Part shown: positions 9,387-17,981 of the stretch, one piece after another
Numbering within the stretch: the first letter of the stretch is position 1
Layout of the letters: each line of letters opens with the position of its first letter
From: an uncultured Pelagibacteraceae bacterium
Lineage (GTDB): Bacteria > Pseudomonadota > Alphaproteobacteria > Pelagibacterales > Pelagibacteraceae
Length of the DNA: 64,000 bases
Reading direction: 5' to 3'
Assembly (NCBI GenBank): GCA_902610975.1
Contig: CACLXL010000005.1
Location: forward strand, 1-64,000
Notes under the pieces: model-generated
Seen by the model: the letters and a program-made list of their open reading frames with translations, nothing else
The model's database searches: none
What the model was told of the DNA's origin: nothing
Made by a program: the position numbers and the translations under genes

Positions 9387-9472
9387 TGGTGCCCTCGGCC
9401 AGACTCGAACTGGCACTCCCAAAAGGGCAAGGATTTTAAGTCCTTTGTGTCTACCAATTTCACCACGAGGGC
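9387..9472 (-). tRNA. tRNA-Leu (anticodon TAA), island attachment site
   Basis: Class II tRNA. The acceptor strand GCCCTCG pairs with CGAGGGC, the anticodon loop CTTAAAA gives TAA, a long variable arm is present, the T arm is CCAGTTCGAGTCTGG, and ACCA is encoded. Length 86 bases. Its 5' half from the anticodon loop outward (9434-9474) is exactly duplicated at 16919-16959, marking this gene as the target of an integration event. The gene itself is intact. Confidence 0.97.
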
Positions 9473-9474
9473 AC
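9434..9474 (-). repeat. Direct repeat copy 1 (att-like core in tRNA-Leu)
   Basis: This 41-base segment covers the tRNA-Leu 5' end, D arm and 5' half of the anticodon arm. It is identical to 16919-16959 in the same orientation, and identity stops abruptly on both sides. Integrases of the tyrosine recombinase family commonly use tRNA anticodon arms as crossover sites. Confidence 0.85.
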
Positions 9475-9553
9475 GTCGTTGTTTTTGTTGTTATTGTTAA
9501 TATATTAATACACAAGTGTTTTAAATAAGTAAAAATAATTTATTTTACGTCTC

Positions 9554-9600
9554 TATCTTCTAGTTGTCTTCTAGTCTTCCCATATTTTATATGACAATAA
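9554..9600 (+). repeat. 47-base imperfect repeat, copy 1
   Basis: Matches 13046-13092 at 41 of 47 positions by eye, in the same orientation. It contains TCTTCTAG twice with an 11-base period (9556-9563 and 9567-9574), then a shared CATATTTTATA and GACAATAA tail. A shorter related block with the same doubled TCTTCTAG lies at 16774-16792. Confidence 0.7.
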
Positions 9601-9625
9601 ATGAGTTTTTTTCTGTCCGCGGCAA

Positions 9626-9640
9626 CTGGCAACAGAACGC
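9626..9640 (+). repeat. 15-base direct repeat, copy 1 (CTGGCAACAGAACGC)
   Basis: Exact copy of 9898-9912. The two copies bracket the small membrane protein gene at 9678-9893, and weaker similarity extends to both sides (GCAACTGG versus GCACCTGG before, ACC versus TCC after). Function unknown. Confidence 0.7.
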
Positions 9641-9677
9641 ACCTTGCACTACAATTAAGAATGATAAATAATCAAGC

Positions 9678-9893
9678 ATGATTGATTTTAAAAAAAATCC
9701 TAAATTAGCATTATTCACTTATGGAATATTATTATGTTCTGCTCTGATAGAAATAGGTGCAGAACTTGGACTCCATGAATTTGATGATTTTGCTTCACAT
9801 CACGGCTTAGCAATTTTTTCTATCGGAAGTTTAATTGCTAATTGGGAAAAAATTTCTCAAATATTAACTAAAGGTAAAAAAAAGAAATATTAA
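9678..9893 (+). CDS. Small membrane protein of unknown function
   Basis: A 71-residue protein I do not recognise. Two hydrophobic stretches (about residues 10-30 and 42-55) are separated by a short acidic and His-containing loop (HEFDDFASHHG), and it ends in a run of lysines, suggesting a small inner-membrane hairpin with a cytoplasmic basic tail. It is the only plus-strand gene in the island and is bracketed by 15-base direct repeats. Its integrity is supported only by the open frame and the membrane pattern. Confidence 0.55.
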   Translation: MIDFKKNPKLALFTYGILLCSALIEIGAELGLHEFDDFASHHGLAIFSIGSLIANWEKISQILTKGKKKKY

Positions 9894-9897
9894 GCAC

Positions 9898-9912
9898 CTG
9901 GCAACAGAACGC
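9898..9912 (+). repeat. 15-base direct repeat, copy 2 (CTGGCAACAGAACGC)
   Basis: Exact copy of 9626-9640, starting 5 bases after the stop of the small membrane protein gene. The pair could be recombination scars or protein-binding sites. Confidence 0.7.
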
Positions 9913-10145
9913 TCCTACTTAATTTAATATTTAAAAATATAATCCTCTTTAATAAAAGATTAAATATTTTGTAATATAGGCTTAATAATTAGATGTTCTG
10001 ATTACTTATGTTTAAACTAAAAAAAATATTAAAAAAGATTTATTATTTTATCTTCCCTAAGGAGCTTAAATAATGTGGGCATACAACGATAAAGAAAATG
10101 AGTTTATCTCATTGAATTGAACTGTTTTAGAGAATATTATTTTCA
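9913..10145. other. Gene-poor stretch with two tiny overlapping frames
   Basis: No normal gene. On the plus strand a 21-codon frame (10008-10073, product MFKLKKILKKIYYFIFPKEL plus K) overlaps by one base, as TAATG, a 15-codon frame (10073-10120, MWAYNDKENEFISLN). The second has AAGGAG 8 bases upstream. They could be real micro-proteins or the decayed end of a lost gene. Confidence 0.3.
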
Positions 10146-10766
10146 TTATTTTATGATATTTTCAATAATATAATTTGATTTAGCATCATTCATTCTTATA
10201 TTTTTAAATGTGTAAAAATATTTTTTTTTTTTTATTTTTTTTATTTTGGAAATAAATAAAAATTGAGTATGAAAAACAAGGAAATTAATATGATTTTTAT
10301 TTAGTTTTTGGTTAATTTTACCATTTTTTCGATGACTATGTAATATTAAACCAAGTTTAAAATCTTTTGTGATGCCTCTAATCTTGACTAGATTGCTTTC
10401 TTTAAAAGAAATAAAATAAACATTCTTCTTAAAACCATTACATGTTTCAAGCAATCGATTTAAAGTATTTTTCCTAAGCAGAGGCTTAATCTCAACTAAC
10501 ACTTTTGTATTTACAGTTAAAATTTTTAAAAGATCACATAGTTTTGTTATCTTGTATTTTTTTAAATTCTTATCAAGAATTGTTCTAGTTTTTTTTCTGA
10601 TATTGAATAACCTTCTTAAGCTATAATCATGAAAGCAAATGGGTGTATTGTTTTGGGTAAAGTGAATATCAGTCTCAATATTAAACTTTTTTTTTATACA
10701 CTCTTTAAATGAAGTAATATGATTTTCTCTAAAGTTTTTTTCAATTAATCCTCTGTGTATAAACAT
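10146..10766 (-). CDS. Glycerophosphodiester phosphodiesterase family protein
   Basis: Likely hydrolyses glycerophosphodiesters to glycerol-3-phosphate and an alcohol. The family signatures are visible: HRG at residues 4-6, the metal-binding ETDIHFTQNNTPICFHD segment at about 32-48 and an EIKP strand near residue 95. At 206 residues it is shorter than the usual 240-250, with the loss towards the C-terminal end of the barrel. No signal peptide, so probably cytoplasmic. It overlaps the upstream transporter gene by one base (TAATG), implying a shared function such as import and cleavage of a phosphodiester. Substrate not determined. Confidence 0.75.
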   Translation of the reverse strand: MFIHRGLIEKNFRENHITSFKECIKKKFNIETDIHFTQNNTPICFHDYSLRRLFNIRKKTRTILDKNLKKYKITKLCDLLKILTVNTKVLVEIKPLLRKNTLNRLLETCNGFKKNVYFISFKESNLVKIRGITKDFKLGLILHSHRKNGKINQKLNKNHINFLVFHTQFLFISKIKKIKKKKYFYTFKNIRMNDAKSNYIIENIIK

Positions 10767-11980
10767 TATTTTAATCCCTTGGTTCTATGCAATATGATCC
10801 ATCCAAAAAAGAGCAGTAAAAGAACTGAGGCAAAACCTATCCTTTGATTTTCAGTTATGAAAGTAATGGTTCCTACTAAAAATGGGCCAAAAAAAGACGT
10901 TAGCTTTCCAGAAGTAGCAAATAAACCAAAGGCTTTATTCTGATCCTCAATTTTTGTTAATTTAGTTATCATGACCCTACTAGCTGATTGTATTGGTCCT
11001 ATAAATAATCCCAAGAAAAATGAAAAAATAAAAAAACTAATTTTTGACTGTGTAAAAATGATTAAAATGGAGAGGAAAATAAGACATATCAAGGAAAAGG
11101 AAATTGTTTTTTTTGAATTATATTTATCATTGAAATATCCACCAAAACTAGCACCTATTAAAGCAGCAACATTCATTAAAACAGACATCATTAAAAGTTC
11201 ATTTATTGATAGTTTAAATACCCCAACAGCAAAAATACCTCCCATGACAAAAATGGTATTTAAACCATCAGCATAAAGTAGCCGTGCAAACAAAAAACGA
11301 GTTGTGTTAGTTAGACCATTATTCCAAAGAATCTTTTTTAAACTATTTGATTTTTTTTTGTTTGGTTCAACTTTTTTATATTTTGTTTGACTTAATAGTG
11401 GATAGGAAAAAATGAGAAACCAAAGGGCTACAAAAATGGCAGTGGATCTAAAATTAATTTTTTGATCTAAATCGATTAAATAATTTGATTGAATTAATAA
11501 AATAATGGTCAAAATAAGTGTGATAATGCCACCTAAATACCCCAGCGCAAAAGCAAAACCAGACACCTTTCCCACATGTTGTTTATCCGCTGAATGAATT
11601 AATAATGAATTATAGAAAATAGAACTTAGTTCATAAAAATAGTTTGCCAAACAAACTATGATTAAGGTAAATAAAATATATTCAGTAGATGGTTTTGCAA
11701 ACCATAATGCTGCTGTAAAAAATATACATAAATAGGTGCTTGATTTTAAGATAATTGAGTTTAAATTCTTCTTATCAGCTAAATTTCCTAAAAAGGGTCC
11801 GCTTAATGCAATGCATAGTCCTGATACTGAAATGGCCCAACCCCAATATGCCTGGCCATTAACCATATCTTGAACAATTGACTCCGCAAAATAATTTGAG
11901 AAAACAAAAGTTATAATAACTGTTGTAAAGGCAGAATTAGCAAAATCATAAAGAGAATATTTATAAGATTTTAAATTCAT
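10766..11980 (-). CDS. MFS transporter, UMF1/Atg22-like family
   Basis: A 404-residue protein with about 12 hydrophobic segments. It starts with the YDFANSAFTTVI motif typical of the UMF1 (unknown major facilitator 1, Atg22-like) family, followed by GNLADKK in the first cytoplasmic loop and SRVMITKLT in the second half. Substrates of bacterial UMF1 members are mostly unknown. Tight coupling to a glycerophosphodiesterase suggests transport of glycerophosphodiesters or their products; this is inference. The orphan signal-peptide remnant (11995-12033) lies just upstream. Confidence 0.8.
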   Translation of the reverse strand: MNLKSYKYSLYDFANSAFTTVIITFVFSNYFAESIVQDMVNGQAYWGWAISVSGLCIALSGPFLGNLADKKNLNSIILKSSTYLCIFFTAALWFAKPSTEYILFTLIIVCLANYFYELSSIFYNSLLIHSADKQHVGKVSGFAFALGYLGGIITLILTIILLIQSNYLIDLDQKINFRSTAIFVALWFLIFSYPLLSQTKYKKVEPNKKKSNSLKKILWNNGLTNTTRFLFARLLYADGLNTIFVMGGIFAVGVFKLSINELLMMSVLMNVAALIGASFGGYFNDKYNSKKTISFSLICLIFLSILIIFTQSKISFFIFSFFLGLFIGPIQSASRVMITKLTKIEDQNKAFGLFATSGKLTSFFGPFLVGTITFITENQRIGFASVLLLLFFGWIILHRTKGLK

Positions 11981-11994
11981 GCTAATTTAATATC

Positions 11995-12033
11995 TTATAA
12001 ATCCAGAACTACGATCGCTAAAAGTTTTTTCAT
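11995..12033 (-). pseudogene. Orphan signal-peptide fragment (gene remnant)
   Basis: ATG at 12033 begins MKKLLAIVVLDL and stops at 11995. The first ten codons match almost base for base the signal-peptide starts at 14284 and 15123. It begins one base after the stop of the upstream lyase-like gene, exactly where a next operon gene would start. The body of that gene is gone and the transporter gene follows. Best read as the stump of a fourth exported protein removed by a deletion or replaced by the transporter/phosphodiesterase pair. Confidence 0.6.
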
Positions 12034-12034
12034 T

Positions 12035-12997
12035 TTAAAGTTTATTACAATTGTACCCTAAATTTATTAGGTTTAATTTATTACATTGATCTGCAAATCT
12101 TATTTCATCTATGTACAAAATTTGAACTGTTGACGCTTCCTCATACTTCCATTTAGTTTTCACTTTTTTTCCTTTAGCCTTTATTTGATTTGCTCTTGGT
12201 TGATAAATACCAAAATTTGTTGACGAGAGTGATGAGTTTCCTGGCATTTTATTTTGCATATCTACAATTTTTTTGCCGTTAACCCATATGAATAAACTTT
12301 TCTTATTTGGTGTATGTACTATTACATCTATCCACTTTCCTAAGTGATTAGAAAAATGTTTTAAATCAAAAAAAGGTGGATCGTGATATTTTTCGCTTAT
12401 TTTTCTACAAATATTTTTTCCCAGAAGTTTTTTGCTAATTTTCACGCACTCATTGTCGTGAAGAAAACTTCTTAACTGCACATTTACAATTCCTTCAGGT
12501 GAAATACCCATTCTATAATGTGCACCTTTGCCTTTTCTATGTATTTGATTGAATATAAGTCGCGTATTTGAATGAATATAATTTTTAGGGATTAATACGG
12601 AAAATGAAAGCCATTTACTTCCCCAATCCCGATACTTTGTTCCTATAAAAACTCGTCGTGCTCCCTCATAGCAATTGTTCCAGTTATTTATGCTATCATT
12701 TGATTTCTTGTATATCCCACAATCACCTGGATGACTTTCAAATTTAATAGAGATATTATCATCTCTTGAAATTTCATCTGTGATTATCAAACAGTGATCA
12801 GGTCCTTTACCATTTTGCCAGCATGAATCCCAATGGTTCATTCTTAATTTTTTACCTTCAAGAACATTATCAGGTAAATTAATTAAACGACTATTACCAC
12901 TACTTTTGCTTCCAGCTAATTCTTTCCACACTATTGGATCAGCATATGAATTATTTAAAAAGAGAAAAAATAATAAAAATATAGACAAACTTTTCAT
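12035..12997 (-). CDS. Exported polysaccharide-lyase-like protein (heparin lyase I fold)
   Basis: A 320-residue protein with an N-terminal signal peptide (cleavage probably after NNSYA, near residue 19). The mature part resembles the polysaccharide lyase family with a jelly-roll (concanavalin-like) fold: FESHPGDCG, then LSFSVLIPKNYI, RLIFNQIHRKG, GKWIDVIVHTP, LFIWVNGKKIV, NFGIYQPR and a final LYIDEIRFAD strand. It contains several cysteines consistent with periplasmic disulfides. Family assignment is from the order of these motifs; activity and substrate are not established. A distant paralogue lies at 58503-59312. Confidence 0.6.
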   Translation of the reverse strand: MKSLSIFLLFFLFLNNSYADPIVWKELAGSKSSGNSRLINLPDNVLEGKKLRMNHWDSCWQNGKGPDHCLIITDEISRDDNISIKFESHPGDCGIYKKSNDSINNWNNCYEGARRVFIGTKYRDWGSKWLSFSVLIPKNYIHSNTRLIFNQIHRKGKGAHYRMGISPEGIVNVQLRSFLHDNECVKISKKLLGKNICRKISEKYHDPPFFDLKHFSNHLGKWIDVIVHTPNKKSLFIWVNGKKIVDMQNKMPGNSSLSSTNFGIYQPRANQIKAKGKKVKTKWKYEEASTVQILYIDEIRFADQCNKLNLINLGYNCNKL

Positions 12998-13045
12998 AGT
13001 TAAAATTTAAATTATCAGTATTAAATATTTATGAAAAGTAAAAAT

Positions 13046-13092
13046 TATCTTCTAGTTTGCACCTAGTCTTCACATATTTTATAGGACAATAA
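13046..13092 (+). repeat. 47-base imperfect repeat, copy 2
   Basis: Matches 9554-9600 at 41 of 47 positions. It occupies most of the 96-base gap between the serine hydrolase and lyase-like genes and contains TCTTCTAG (13048-13055) and a degenerate second unit (13059-13066). It may mark the seam between two separately acquired parts of the island. Confidence 0.65.
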
Positions 13093-13093
13093 G

Positions 13094-14284
13094 TTAGTTT
13101 TGTTTCCAAACAAGATTTACTAATTCTTGAGGTTTCCAACTAATAGCAAAACCATTCGTCTGAATTATTTTGTCATTTTTCCAATCAATTAAAGATAGTC
13201 TTAAACCGTGTCCTCTCATTTGAACTAAATTTTCTACATTATACCCATTTAACCAAAAGAACATTGCATATTTAGGAGCAAATTTTTTCTTAGTGGGAAC
13301 GGCATTCTTAAAAGCCTCTTGTAACTTTTTTGCCTCACAAGAGTTTTTATCCTTCATTAATTCAATAACGTATATTCCAAACCTTAGCCAATCTTCTCTA
13401 GTAAGCATGATAGATGACGATGATATTGGAACTCCCTTTTTGTCTAATAATATTTTACCCTTTGACTCAAAACCTGCAGTTTCTGAAATATTTTTTTGAA
13501 ACCATTTAGCAAACTTCTTTTTTCCTCCTAATACATTGATCATATCTAATGTTATTAAATCAGTATTAGGATTTGAGTATTTAAATTCTTTTGGTCCTTC
13601 TGTTTCTAATTTTTTAGGGTGCTTATTAAGAATAGTTGTTAAGTCAGATTTCTTTCTGTGCGTTTCCTTTAAAATATTATAATTTATTACAAATTGATCT
13701 CTAGCCAACATATTTAAGGAGTCTTTTAATTTTACATGGCCATAAAATGAGTCTTTAATTTCTGGAGAGTAATCACCATGAGTTTTATCTAAATCTAAAA
13801 TATTTTGACAAGCCATTTTTAAAGCAGCAACACCAACTATTGATTTGCTCCTAGACTCACCATTTATAGGTTTGTTATTAAAAATATAATCTCTTTTCCA
13901 ATCGTGAATTAATTCTCCTTTATCAAATACCATCAAACTAGAGATATCTCTGTAATATACATAATCATAAATTTCTTTTGGAAGAGGTTTTATATTTTTT
14001 TTAATTGGTCTGATTGTTTTTTTTGCTGGTTGTATTATAATTCTTTTTAACCCTCCATTATTTTTGTGATCTCTATTTTTCAAACTTGCTTTTCGATAAT
14101 AGCCATGAGCCCAATAATCGTGTCTTTCTGTGCAAAACTTGCAATCATTAGGAGGGTATTCTGCTTTTGGAAAATCCTTCTTCCATCTTTCTAACGAAGG
14201 AGACCATTTATTTTTTGGTGGTGTTGCAATTAAGGTGGTGCTCCACAACAAACCCAGAACCATGATCGCTAAAAGTTTTTTCAT
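13094..14284 (-). CDS. Exported serine hydrolase, beta-lactamase class C-like fold
   Basis: A 396-residue protein with signal peptide MKKLLAIMVLGLLWSTTLIA. The penicillin-binding/class C beta-lactamase layout is visible: SRSK at about residues 145-148 as the SxxK nucleophile motif, YSNPN near residue 237 as the YxN motif and RGHGLRL near 360 as the KTG-equivalent box. Members act as esterases, D-peptidases or amidases, so antibiotic resistance should not be assumed. A CKFC pair near residue 48 may form a disulfide or bind metal. It overlaps the upstream hydrolase gene by one base (TAATG). Confidence 0.72.
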   Translation of the reverse strand: MKKLLAIMVLGLLWSTTLIATPPKNKWSPSLERWKKDFPKAEYPPNDCKFCTERHDYWAHGYYRKASLKNRDHKNNGGLKRIIIQPAKKTIRPIKKNIKPLPKEIYDYVYYRDISSLMVFDKGELIHDWKRDYIFNNKPINGESRSKSIVGVAALKMACQNILDLDKTHGDYSPEIKDSFYGHVKLKDSLNMLARDQFVINYNILKETHRKKSDLTTILNKHPKKLETEGPKEFKYSNPNTDLITLDMINVLGGKKKFAKWFQKNISETAGFESKGKILLDKKGVPISSSSIMLTREDWLRFGIYVIELMKDKNSCEAKKLQEAFKNAVPTKKKFAPKYAMFFWLNGYNVENLVQMRGHGLRLSLIDWKNDKIIQTNGFAISWKPQELVNLVWKQN

Positions 14285-15123
14285 TAGTTTATATATTCTT
14301 TAATGATAGATCCAATTGTTGCCATAGACCTTAATCCGTGACCTCCATCAATAATATGTAACTTAACTTGTAGTTTTTTCTTTTTAAGTAAATCATAATA
14401 ATATTTTGAAACTCCTGGAGCTGTATTTTTATCATCTTTTCCAACAATTAATATGTTGAGAGATTTTAAATCTATATCTTTATAATTGAAACTTGGTGAG
14501 TTTTTTTTTAATTCTTTCAATTGAGATTTGGTTTCCCATTTTTTACCGTTGCTTAGTTTTTTTCTAGTTTCCCAGTCACACGGGCAAGAGATCAAAATAT
14601 TTATATCAACTAATCCTGGTACTTTTCCATGAATAGTACCTCCCTGATAAGCTCCTCCAGAATGACCAATTAAAATTAGTTTTTTTGGTTTATAATATTT
14701 TTTAAGATTTTGTAATGCAGGTGCTAGTATTTGAAAATTTTTCCAATCATAATTTACCACTGTACTCTTTATAGCGTTACGAGGTCCTGATGAATATCTA
14801 TCCTCTTCACTACTGCCTCTTTCTCTAATAAAGTAACCAGGTCTTGCAAAAAGAAAAATATTGTTATTATCGTTTATTAATTCTTTTGCAAATCTAATTT
14901 GACTTTTTTTGGGTATTCCTGGTCTTGGAGAATTAGGACTACCATCACCATGAAGAAATACTATTAAGTTTTTTTTACCCTTTTCAATCTTTCCTAAATT
15001 TAAAATTGCTATACATTTGTTTTTACCTGCTGATATATATTTTATGAAATCCTCTTTTTCACAAGCATTAGAGTTTCCACTCAACAGCAAACCTAGAACC
15101 ACGATCGCTAAAAGTTTTTTCAT
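14284..15123 (-). CDS. Exported alpha/beta hydrolase
   Basis: ATG at 15123 is preferred over the frame's extension to 15135 because it gives the clean signal peptide MKKLLAIVVLGLLLSGNSNA and forms a TAATG junction with the gene before it. The roughly 279-residue product has the alpha/beta hydrolase pattern: LIVFLHGDG (oxyanion loop), LILIGHSGGAYQ (nucleophile elbow), ILIVGKDDK (acid strand) and IDGGHGLR (catalytic histidine). Likely a periplasmic esterase or lipase-like enzyme; substrate unknown. Its neighbours suggest carbohydrate de-esterification, which is inference. Confidence 0.75.
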   Translation of the reverse strand: MKKLLAIVVLGLLLSGNSNACEKEDFIKYISAGKNKCIAILNLGKIEKGKKNLIVFLHGDGSPNSPRPGIPKKSQIRFAKELINDNNNIFLFARPGYFIRERGSSEEDRYSSGPRNAIKSTVVNYDWKNFQILAPALQNLKKYYKPKKLILIGHSGGAYQGGTIHGKVPGLVDINILISCPCDWETRKKLSNGKKWETKSQLKELKKNSPSFNYKDIDLKSLNILIVGKDDKNTAPGVSKYYYDLLKKKKLQVKLHIIDGGHGLRSMATIGSIIKEYIN

Positions 15124-16391
15124 TAATTCATACACTTTGGTTCAAATCCAAAGTTTCTATCTACAAAATAAACTGATTTTTTTGATTTCCACATTCTATC
15201 ATTTGCAACTATAGTATGATCTCTGTCTGTGTACTTTTTAATTAGCCAGTCTAGAGATATAGCCATCTGGTGTGTGTGATAATTTGCGTGCGCTTGATCT
15301 TTTGTAAAGTTCTGTAACCCCGATGGATCTTTACGTTCTCTGTATTTTTTAACATCAGTAAGTCCCAAGTTCAGTATATCGACAGTTCTATCTATTCTTT
15401 GCTTTAATTCTTTTGGAAACTCCTTATAGCCCCATAGTTCAGCTATTGCATAAAGTCCTAATAAATTATTTACACCCTGAGAATGATACCAGACATCTCT
15501 AACACCTCTGAAACTGTTATTATGAATATATCCATCTTGATATACAACTTTACCGGCTTTACTAATTCCTTTTTTAATCCATTCTGCTACGGAACCTGGT
15601 TCATCTTTCCAAGCCAAATATGATAGGACAGAGATAGTTCCATCAGCCATTTGTATAAAACCTCTTGCATGTTTCTTTGATGTAAGTTCTTTTTCAGCCC
15701 ACGGCTTGATATATTTTTTGTACAAAGTATCAATATACTCATCAATAATTTTATATTGTTCTTTAGTAAAATGATTTTTCATTAAATATGCTTGTTGGAT
15801 ATAGGTAGCTCCATATATTTGAGCTTCATGCGGTCTGTGAGAAATACAAGGTTTGTTACCTTTGGCTTTGGCTCCTCCATAACATAGTCTATCAACTTTA
15901 CCTTCATCTTTTAGTTTACTAATTTCTTTAGAAGTTAAAGTATTTAACATCACACCTGCTTCTGCCCAGGCTAGCATAACTTCAGCAATAATCGGACCAT
16001 GTTCCTTCATTTTGTTATCTACGATTGCTGTTACAATAGCTCCGTGCAGTAATGCTAACCTATTAGAATGTTTTTCGTGATTAACATATATGCTGTTTGA
16101 TCTTTGTTCGTGATCTTTGTTCCAATCATACTTAGTAAGTTTCATTAAATGATCATAGTTGTTTCCTTGTAATTCAGGATTTTTTGACTTACTTACATGT
16201 GTTATTGAAAGATCTAAGTCCCAGCCTGCTTTACCCCAACTGCCATAACCATGTACACCTTTTAGCGAACAATTTTTTTTTGTGAGTTCATTTGCAAAGA
16301 AGTATTTCGGAATAACAATATCATTTTTCTTTGCGTAAGTATTCCCACTGCACAACAAACCAAGAACTATGATCATTAGAAGTTTTTTCAT
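15123..16391 (-). CDS. Exported alginate-lyase-like protein (alpha/alpha toroid)
   Basis: A 422-residue protein with signal peptide MKKLLMIIVLGLLCSGNTYA. The helical mature region has widely spaced His, Asn, Tyr and Trp motifs typical of the alginate lyase (PL5-like) fold, notably VWYHSQGVNNLLGLYAIAEL near residues 310-330 and HANYHTHQMAISLDWLIKKY near 375-395. Such enzymes cleave uronic-acid polysaccharides by beta-elimination. Assignment is by fold-like motif only and could be another (alpha/alpha) enzyme. It starts immediately after the stop of the small cytosolic gene upstream. Confidence 0.55.
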   Translation of the reverse strand: MKKLLMIIVLGLLCSGNTYAKKNDIVIPKYFFANELTKKNCSLKGVHGYGSWGKAGWDLDLSITHVSKSKNPELQGNNYDHLMKLTKYDWNKDHEQRSNSIYVNHEKHSNRLALLHGAIVTAIVDNKMKEHGPIIAEVMLAWAEAGVMLNTLTSKEISKLKDEGKVDRLCYGGAKAKGNKPCISHRPHEAQIYGATYIQQAYLMKNHFTKEQYKIIDEYIDTLYKKYIKPWAEKELTSKKHARGFIQMADGTISVLSYLAWKDEPGSVAEWIKKGISKAGKVVYQDGYIHNNSFRGVRDVWYHSQGVNNLLGLYAIAELWGYKEFPKELKQRIDRTVDILNLGLTDVKKYRERKDPSGLQNFTKDQAHANYHTHQMAISLDWLIKKYTDRDHTIVANDRMWKSKKSVYFVDRNFGFEPKCMN

Positions 16392-16706
16392 TTAATTTTT
16401 AATATATGCATCTGGATAGTTAGCAAGATGCTCATCTGAAATTGGAGTCATTACAGCAGTTTCTAAAACAGCTCCAGCTTCCTTTCTTTTCTCAGCAAGT
16501 TCCTTATCATCCTTAAAAGCTTGGAGTGCTTCCATGTTTGGAAATTGCATTACTGTATGAAGTTTTGTCGGGTCATCTTTTTGTGTGCCTGCAAAAACAA
16601 ATTTTATTCCATGTTCTTTTAATTTTCCATCCTGCGCATAGACCATCTCTTTCCATGTTTTAAATCCTTTAGTAATTGTAATTTCACCTTTGACTAGTAT
16701 TCCCAT
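16392..16706 (-). CDS. Small protein of the dimeric alpha/beta-barrel type
   Basis: A 104-residue protein without signal peptide, preceded by a strong ribosome binding site (AAGGAG, 7 bases before ATG at 16706). The alternating pattern KGEITIT...FKTWKEMVYAQ...GIKFVFAGTQ...LHTVMQFPNMEALQAF resembles the ferredoxin-like dimeric alpha/beta-barrel proteins (antibiotic-biosynthesis-monooxygenase or DUF3764-like). Function unknown. It is the first gene of the island's minus-strand operon and points away from the displaced tRNA fragment. Confidence 0.6.
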   Translation of the reverse strand: MGILVKGEITITKGFKTWKEMVYAQDGKLKEHGIKFVFAGTQKDDPTKLHTVMQFPNMEALQAFKDDKELAEKRKEAGAVLETAVMTPISDEHLANYPDAYIKN

Positions 16707-16773
16707 ATCAAACTCCTTATTTATATTTTAAAAGTTTTTTCAATAAATAATCTTACCAAATTTTCCCTTTCTG

Positions 16774-16792
16774 TCTTCTAGTTATCTTCTAG
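16774..16792 (+). repeat. Doubled TCTTCTAG motif with 11-base period
   Basis: TCTTCTAG occurs at 16774-16781 and 16785-16792, the same spacing as at 9556-9574 near the other island end. It may be a protein-binding site or a recombination relic. Confidence 0.6.
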
Positions 16793-16869
16793 ACTGCACA
16801 AATAAATTTGCCTTGATTTCTAATATTAATTGAAGGGCTAAATAATTAAATGAGGATTGATAATGTTTT

Positions 16870-16899
16870 GAGACTATCTGAGACTGTCTGAGACTCTAA
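16870..16899 (+). repeat. Three tandem 10-base repeats beside the tRNA fragment
   Basis: Three direct units with a 10-base period: GAGACTATCT, GAGACTGTCT, GAGACTCTAA. They end 19 bases before the duplicated tRNA segment. Short direct repeats next to an attachment core are typical of the arm-type sites of tyrosine integrases, so this could be part of an attachment site. Confidence 0.6.
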
Positions 16900-16918
16900 T
16901 CTTGCTCTATCCCTAGGG

Positions 16919-16959
16919 TTTTAAGTCCTTTGTGTCTACCAATTTCACCACGAGGGCAC
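16919..16959 (-). repeat. Direct repeat copy 2: displaced 5' half of tRNA-Leu
   Basis: Identical over 41 bases to 9434-9474. On the minus strand it is the tRNA-Leu 5' end through the anticodon loop, with no 3' half, so it cannot make a tRNA. It is immediately bordered by CCCTAGGG on the island side. Best explained as the original 5' half left behind when the island inserted. Confidence 0.8.
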
Positions 16960-17027
16960 ATTAATTTAAATTTACTATGTATATGATATTTATATTATTA
17001 TTTAAATCTTATAAATTATATTTTTAA

Positions 17028-17981
17028 ATGGAAAGAATCTTAATATACAACTCTGGAGGCGGACTTGGTGACTCAATTCAGCTATTTCCTTTAATAATTA
17101 GTCTAAAAAGCCATTTTAAAAAATCTAAGTTTTATTATTTAGGCGCTCATGCAAATCATTTTAACGGACGATTGAAAGAATATAACATTAAATTAGAAAC
17201 TTTAGACTTAGGGTTAAAATATTTTGGCTTTAGATGGTGGCATGCACTTTTTGTAAAAAAACGTTTTACAAAAGTAACTTTAGGTAAATTTAATTTGATA
17301 ATTGATTTACAAACCAAACTAAGGAATACGATGATATTAAAACAAATACCTCATGATTTTTTTTATTCAAGAACCCTTAATGGACGTTTGTCTTCAAAAA
17401 AAATCAAGTCAATCTCATCAGACCATTTCGAAAATTTAAGTTTATTTTTTGAAGAAGATATTCTGAAGCTTGACTTTAAAGTAAAAAAATTACCCAAAGA
17501 GATTCTATCAGAGGCCAAAAGACTTTTGCCAAATTCAAATTACGTAGGGTTTTCAGTTACACAAGGTAATGAGTATAGGAAAAAAAGTTGGTCAATTTTT
17601 AAATTTACAGCTTTAGCAAATAAAATATTATCAAAAAATAAAATACCTGTTTTTTTCGTTGAAAAGAATAGAGTTGATCTTATTGAGAAAATTAAAAGTC
17701 AAGTTCCAGCAGCAATTTTTCCTGAAATTAATTCCAAATTAGCTTGCCCTGCCCTAGTAACTGCACTAGCTTCTAGATTAGAAACTGCGGTATCTATAGA
17801 TAATGGTGTTATGCATATGATGGCTTTAGCTAACATTCCTATGATAGTTTTATTTGGGCCAACTAATGCTGAGAAATTTGCGCCGAAAAATAAATTTACT
17901 AAAATTTTAGATAGTAAAAAAATCCATAAAAATAAAGATATAAACTCAATTGAAGTTAACGAAGTTCTTACTCTGATTTAA
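17028..17981 (+). CDS. Glycosyltransferase family 9 (heptosyltransferase-like)
   Basis: A 317-residue GT-B glycosyltransferase of the ADP-heptose:LPS heptosyltransferase family, expected to build the LPS core at the inner face of the cytoplasmic membrane. It begins with YNSGGGLGDSIQLFPLI, has DLQTKLRN near residue 90, and the donor-binding SIDNGVMHMMALANIPMIVLFGP segment near residue 260. It is the first gene past the island and ends overlapping the convergent CinA-like gene by 4 bases. A second family member lies at 61455-62387. Confidence 0.85.
   Translation: MERILIYNSGGGLGDSIQLFPLIISLKSHFKKSKFYYLGAHANHFNGRLKEYNIKLETLDLGLKYFGFRWWHALFVKKRFTKVTLGKFNLIIDLQTKLRNTMILKQIPHDFFYSRTLNGRLSSKKIKSISSDHFENLSLFFEEDILKLDFKVKKLPKEILSEAKRLLPNSNYVGFSVTQGNEYRKKSWSIFKFTALANKILSKNKIPVFFVEKNRVDLIEKIKSQVPAAIFPEINSKLACPALVTALASRLETAVSIDNGVMHMMALANIPMIVLFGPTNAEKFAPKNKFTKILDSKKIHKNKDINSIEVNEVLTLI

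Follow-up and report, generated by a model that had tools for sequence, protein, structure and literature searches.

A repeat array beside a displaced tRNA-Leu fragment marks one end of an integrase-less and probably trans-mobilized cassette in SAR11 bacteria

The window, a 64,000-bp stretch of DNA (30.6% GC) from an uncultured Pelagibacteraceae bacterium (genome G000), contains an exact 41-bp duplication of the 5' half of tRNA-Leu. The proximal copy of this core (9434-9474, minus strand) lies within the intact tRNA-Leu (UAA) gene located by ARAGORN (9387-9472, minus strand), and the distal copy (16919-16959, minus strand) is a displaced, exactly matching fragment. The initial annotation had described three repeat units with exact 10-base spacing next to this fragment, followed by a palindrome that touches it, and both observations were confirmed. 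On the plus strand the units GAGACTATCT, GAGACTGTCT and GAGACTCTAA begin at 16870, 16880 and 16890, the third having only its first six bases in common with the others; TRF reports a tandem repeat of period 10 at 16869-16895, and three of the ten copies of TGAGACT on both strands of the 64 kb fall within the array at 16870-16895. Read in the sense of the tRNA (minus strand), this end consists of the core, 23 bp and AGTCTC-N4-AGTCTC-N4-AGTCTC, a triple that we refer to as DN1 (16870-16895; AGTCTC corresponds to the GAGACT repeats of the plus strand). The palindrome CCCTAGGG occupies 16911-16918, directly abutting the duplicated segment. Its proposed role as a defining part of the site did not survive comparison, as CCCTAGGG starts only six of the 63 distinct cassette ends described below and no substitute palindromic 8-mer takes its place in that set. 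The idea of a conserved operator, or of a palindrome that forms the core, was therefore rejected; the sequence is present but incidental, an element-side sequence beside the crossover that varies between cassettes. A second type of site, absent from the initial annotation, consists of ACTAGAAGA-type words that are paired at 11-bp spacing and occur at both ends of the interval between the cores (9556-9575 and 16774-16793).

The interval enclosed by the two core copies (9475-16918; 7,446 bp counted between 39-bp cores) has the anatomy of a cassette. It begins beside the tRNA gene with the tRNA-proximal part of an UP arm (9496-9535, minus strand), which replaces the native upstream region of the gene and may act as its promoter; a sigma-70-type promoter scan of the UP arm returned one site as compared to 0.7 expected. 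The UP pair, ACTAGAAGA / ACTAGAAGA (9556-9575, minus strand), is followed by seven cargo genes on the minus strand: G, a GDPD-family protein of 206 aa (10146-10766, PF03009); F, an MFS/ATG22-type transporter of 404 aa (10766-11980); E, a polysaccharide-lyase-like protein of 320 aa (12035-12997, PF14099); D, 396 aa without a Pfam family (13094-14284); C, an S9-peptidase-like protein (14284-15135, PF00326); B, 422 aa without a Pfam family (15123-16391); and A, a DUF3764 protein of 104 aa (16392-16706, PF12594). The distal end carries the DN2 pair, TCTAGAAGA / ACTAGAAGA (16774-16793, minus strand), which has the same 11-bp spacing and agrees with the UP pair. In general terms, a cassette reads as core, 23 bp, the AGTCTC array of three 10-bp units, an 11-bp-spaced pair ~123 bp from the core, cargo, and a second matching pair ~80 bp before the next core. 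Pfam searches found no recombinase among the seven cargo proteins of the window, and PF00589 has no match near the island in G000. The single PF00589 match in this genome (76% complete) is a 325-aa ORF on another contig, which we take from its size to be Xer-like. The island differs from an integron cassette array in that no integrase gene is adjacent, the only PF00589 match lying on that other contig. The missing enzyme and the Xer-sized sole match are what would be expected of a dead remnant, that is, of an island that lost its own integrase and whose attachment end merely survives, as the initial annotation had proposed.

Relatives that lack the interval indicate how it was acquired. In six loci that contain only the tRNA (L255-L260), an intact tRNA-Leu is flanked by a GT9 gene on its upstream side and by NAD kinase on its downstream side; the GT9 gene is only partly on the contig in L260, and NAD kinase adjoins the tRNA in five of the six loci and lies ~1.2 kb away in L255. 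The window preserves this order on the far side of the interval, where the native upstream flank of tRNA-Leu (16960-17027) now sits beside the displaced fragment and is followed by the GT9 gene, which begins at 17028. Judged from these sequence comparisons, the interval is a cassette inserted exactly into tRNA-Leu, the 5' part of the gene now being provided by the cassette junction. A cassette that inserts into the 5' half of a tRNA gene has to bring an upstream region for that gene as well. The seventh tRNA-only locus that was fetched, L273, has a tRNA-Leu with a tRNA-proximal remnant of the UP arm but no displaced distal fragment, as though the upstream region brought by a cassette could not be given up again; a scar of this kind is also compatible with the window's site being a dead remnant.

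The layout of the distal end recurs across the family. The arrangement GGACTTAAAA, 23 bp, AGTCTC-N4-AGTCTC-N4-AGTCTC, searched with up to 2 mismatches, is present in 57/397 family genomes and in 3 of the 14 genera, as compared to 0/397 for a reversed control, and the triple therefore occurs far beyond chance. Each of the 24 Pelagibacteraceae loci that carry an exact triple has the core at precisely this 23-bp distance (0-1 mismatches). Among the matches listed, those in 40 of 169 genus genomes extend into the arms. The AGTCTC hexamers are more conserved than their spacers. The bare AGTCTC triple is also found in many other organisms as part of tandem repeats that are unrelated, and of 29 viral contigs that contain it, three (L033, L048 and L054) have the core and 26 do not. 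A first extraction yielded 40 cassettes from 41 loci, and later additions brought the number of closed cassettes, counting the integrase-bearing element L312, to 81; these represent 63 distinct end pairs, several contigs having been retrieved twice, once from each of two collections. Cassettes commonly stand in arrays of two or three, and their lengths range from 236 bp to 9.1 kb. The shortest (L174:6904) consists of arms alone with a single pair site and amounts to an empty cassette. L325:5608 represents a third arm type, with CTAGTGTAGT pairs at both ends, no AGTCTC array and a single 411-aa ORF without a Pfam family as cargo, and in the IMG/VR contig L036 the tRNA-Leu core joins a cassette-type end to phage-like DNA.

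The pair sites are diverse between cassettes but matched within them. The 59 distinct arm sets compared, which omit two cassettes without an AGTCTC array (L324:839 and L325:5608) and those shorter than 300 bp (L174:6904), contain 28 different UP site-2 words. The UP and DN words of the same cassette differ on average by 1.05 mismatches in 9 positions, as compared to 2.96 +/- 0.13 when the ends are shuffled, with 0/10,000 shuffles as low as 1.05, and the two ends match exactly (9/9) in 42 of the 59 sets, where 3.9 are expected and the shuffled maximum is 15. An earlier run, in which 45 sets were stratified by the type of arm, yielded 0.96 versus 2.08 +/- 0.13 mismatches (0/10,000). As the shuffles ignore relatedness, the safer control is the comparison within multi-cassette arrays, in which words differ by 0.82 mismatches within cassettes (22 comparisons) and by 2.64 between cassettes (28). 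Eight sets have at least 3 mismatches, among them L056:2695, a mild case, and L315:12075 and L323, which on inspection by eye are likely register slips of the site finder; in five cassettes (L062, L271, L272, L145:2193 and L175:4604) the pair sites are, by eye, truly mismatched or missing. Arm sites that persist, with their two ends in agreement, through changes of spacers and cargo fit a non-autonomous element better than the end of a dead prophage. The arms are intact in many cassettes, equivalent ends enclose different cargo, and L312 and L316, considered below, retain the sites but not the spacers, all of which weighs against the dead remnant. It is also doubtful that an enzyme gene was lost from this particular island, as integrase-less cassettes are the rule at tRNA-Leu: the layout occurs in 57 of the 397 family genomes, and the integrase family described below in 4. 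We consider a dead remnant unlikely.

Among the cargo of the cassettes are restriction-modification systems (type IIG and type III-like), defence candidates of the helicase type, proteases, cytochrome c and a polysaccharide lyase, and some of it consists of secreted enzymes. This survey comprised 40 proteins, the seven cargo proteins of the window and six more (one an integrase); it covered part of the 57 representatives of the clusters formed by the first 40 cassettes, with short ORFs the least represented. Cargo matching that of the window was found in 13 cassettes at 98.4-99.4% identity, in genomes whose host flanks, as far as they can be compared, show 68-83% similarity (G128, at ~94.6%, is an exception). 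A cargo identity of ~99% across species, together with intact and end-matched arms, points to recent transfer, which is again difficult to reconcile with a dead remnant. The order A-B-C-D-E-F-G of the window is replaced elsewhere by A-B-D-E-F-G, A-D-E-F-G, E-F-G, A-D, C-D or E-C-D. A vestigial pair site at the seam between D and E (13046-13068, minus strand) is the scar left where two cassettes fused, and the window's cargo would be a composite of A-B-C-D and E-F-G. In addition, genes B, C and D have ~40-50 bp in common at their signal-peptide-coding starts (within 13046-14284 and 15123-16391 in the window), a feature also seen in L062, L065, L066 and L263, and these shared starts apparently mark points at which cargo modules are exchanged between species.

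Such seams would also be expected if cargo were swapped by homologous recombination through the tRNA core and the ~200-bp arms, the arms being conserved only because they recombine. SAR11 bacteria recombine heavily, so recombination of this kind could move some cargo; the arms are 75-100% alike, and hybrid cassettes exist. As a full account it is nevertheless quite unlikely, since insertion relative to the empty site stops exactly at the tRNA core, the conserved sites sit among unlike spacers, and neighbours within an array keep different, self-matched variants of the pair sites.

A candidate source of the missing enzyme is provided by satellite-like elements of 7.7-9 kb, circular or integrated, that share the cassette layout and encode a tyrosine integrase of ~545 aa. 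The IMG/VR contigs L033, L048 and L052 (7.8-9.0 kb) have terminal repeats of 99-123 bp, and therefore represent circles; next to the integrase gene, each has the core, matched pairs and an array of the AGTCTC type, which is degenerate in L052, and L033 also encodes a primase/DUF5906-type protein. An integrated counterpart, L312 (genome G338), measures 7,737 bp, lies between a core fragment and tRNA-Leu and contains integrase and primase-like genes; of 9 proteins of L033 that were compared, 8 find a match in it (31-57% identity). The first 48/48 bp of L312 are identical to those of the integrase-less cassette L316:2762, and the two have the same pair word, ACTAGAAAC, at both ends, with unlike DNA between the sites. 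L033 encodes a 97-aa protein (2367-2660) that by eye resembles an AlpA/Xis-type directionality factor; it is 46% identical in L312 and has no Pfam match. In L313 (genome G305) a cassette lies immediately beside a divergent element whose integrase belongs to this family, and this neighbour is possibly a helper within the same array. More distant integrases of the family are found at the 5' half of tRNA-Cys in L282 and L286 (tRNA identity assigned by eye). L283-L285 and L076 encode integrases of the same family beside a CACACTACCT-type triple and a core that may lie at the start of a protein-coding gene. In all of these distant elements (L282-L286 and L076), the pairs match at both ends wherever both sides are readable. 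Searches for the window's arm strings in viral contigs gave 0 matches. The ACTAGAAGA pair variant of the window was found in none of the integrase elements, and integrase-less cassettes were not seen as circles or excision products.

The integrase encoded by L312 was modeled with a mean pLDDT of 78.7 and a whole-model pTM of 0.42. In a fold search, residues 29-144 align with the arm-binding domains of HPI/HAI7/P4-like integrases (3jtz: Z 8.8, 2.1 Å, 77 residues aligned; 3ju0: Z 9.4, 2.7 Å, 88 aligned), and residues 337-533 align with the lambda catalytic core (1ae9: Z 13.9, 3.0 Å, 150 aligned). The proposed helper integrase is predicted to be a heterobivalent enzyme of the P4/HPI type, with an N-terminal arm-binding domain and a lambda-like catalytic domain. 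A sequence search of solved structures with the integrase profile returned one irrelevant match (E 0.039), and the integrase has no match in the phage collection. The initial annotation had suggested a comparison with phages that use tRNA-Leu, and the temperate pelagiphage HTVC105P and uvMED S35-C6 do carry the core (39/39) beside an integrase gene. It is, however, very improbable that the window holds an attachment remnant of such a phage, and this origin was rejected, as the arms are unrelated to those of tRNA-Leu pelagiphages: near the core of HTVC105P, HTVC109P or S35-C6 there is no AGTCTC array, and there are no paired sites. The expected resemblance to a recombinase attachment site with core and arm repeats was instead borne out by the satellite-like elements, and by the empty site in relatives.

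Taken together, the site is probably the distal end of an integrative cassette that is non-autonomous and moved in trans by integrases of satellite elements. That the cassettes move at all, and that another element's recombinase mobilizes them, we infer, the latter from the shared sites. The long tyrosine integrase would be supplied by the 7.7-9 kb elements, its N-terminal domain binding the pair sites and its core-binding and catalytic domains binding the tRNA core. Strand exchange in the anticodon loop would then insert or excise a circle, and the UP arm would provide the upstream region of the tRNA gene. The 10-bp array would most likely serve as the site of a directionality-factor filament or as a third integrase arm. 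Repeated insertion could build tandem arrays, and loss of internal junctions could give rise to composites such as A-B-C-D + E-F-G in the window.

Several known systems resemble the cassette in part. Tycheposons and VEIMEs, like the SAR11 cassettes, combine marine streamlined hosts, tRNA targets, satellite-sized elements and cargo islands, and a tyrosine recombinase module is a defining part of the tycheposon. The window cassette is likewise integrated at a tRNA gene with cargo, but it differs in having no tyrosine recombinase, in its insertion into the tRNA 5' half and in arms that vary per cassette. Both groups are mentioned in the accessible portions of PMC11389934 and PMC10872708. The additive island of Methylophilaceae is similarly bounded by repeated tRNA fragments in streamlined aquatic bacteria, but involves the last 20 bp of tRNA-Lys, and the portion of its description available contains no arm analysis (PMC10872708). 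ICEMlSymR7A, as described in part of PMC11963761, has a 283-bp attP with five arm sites, requires only attP and integrase for integration, and has a directionality factor, RdfS, that binds at about one molecule per 10 bp. The cassette ends share with this element, and with P4/HPI-type integrases as named in PDB titles, a few-hundred-bp region of core and about five repeated arm sites read by an integrase N-domain, whereas in SAR11 the attP travels without an integrase gene and the arm word differs between cassettes. Charybdis elements (PMC12324425) were rejected as the satellites, as the text available describes them as ~4.6 kb in size, with archaeal hosts where known and no reported replication hallmark. 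A further parallel is with cis-mobilizable elements (CIMEs): the cassette has attL/attR-like ends with core copies and arms at both borders, has no integrase or transfer genes of its own (by Pfam for the window cargo, with 0 PF00589 matches near the island), and shows accretion, in tandem arrays among relatives and in the fusion scar of the window. Fifteen Dehalococcoides ssrA islands without an integration module were suggested to be CIMEs in the accessible part of PMC3146451; they too are arranged in tandem at one RNA gene with displaced gene fragments and variable cargo, but they use a serine recombinase and the 3' end of ssrA, and that part mentions no matched pairs of arms specific to a cassette. 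Tandem islands without an integrase at an RNA gene are of an already known kind; the literature searched, which excludes most subscription journals, contains no description of the SAR11 cassettes or their matched arm words.

SAR11 bacteria are among the most abundant bacterial groups, and as their genomes are streamlined and poor in recognizable mobile elements, how they gain genes is a standing question. We tentatively propose that their tRNA-Leu gene may host an economy of small integrase-less cassettes, in which the paired arm word could serve as a per-cassette address, identical at both ends and read by diversified satellite integrases, so that satellites might spread host genes for defence and secreted enzymes between species. 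If true, a fixed landing site and an enzyme-free cassette format that at least three genera have in common, with restriction systems and secreted enzymes as contents, would constitute a concrete and searchable route of gene gain, and the matched arm words would offer a natural data set for covariation between integrases and arm sites.
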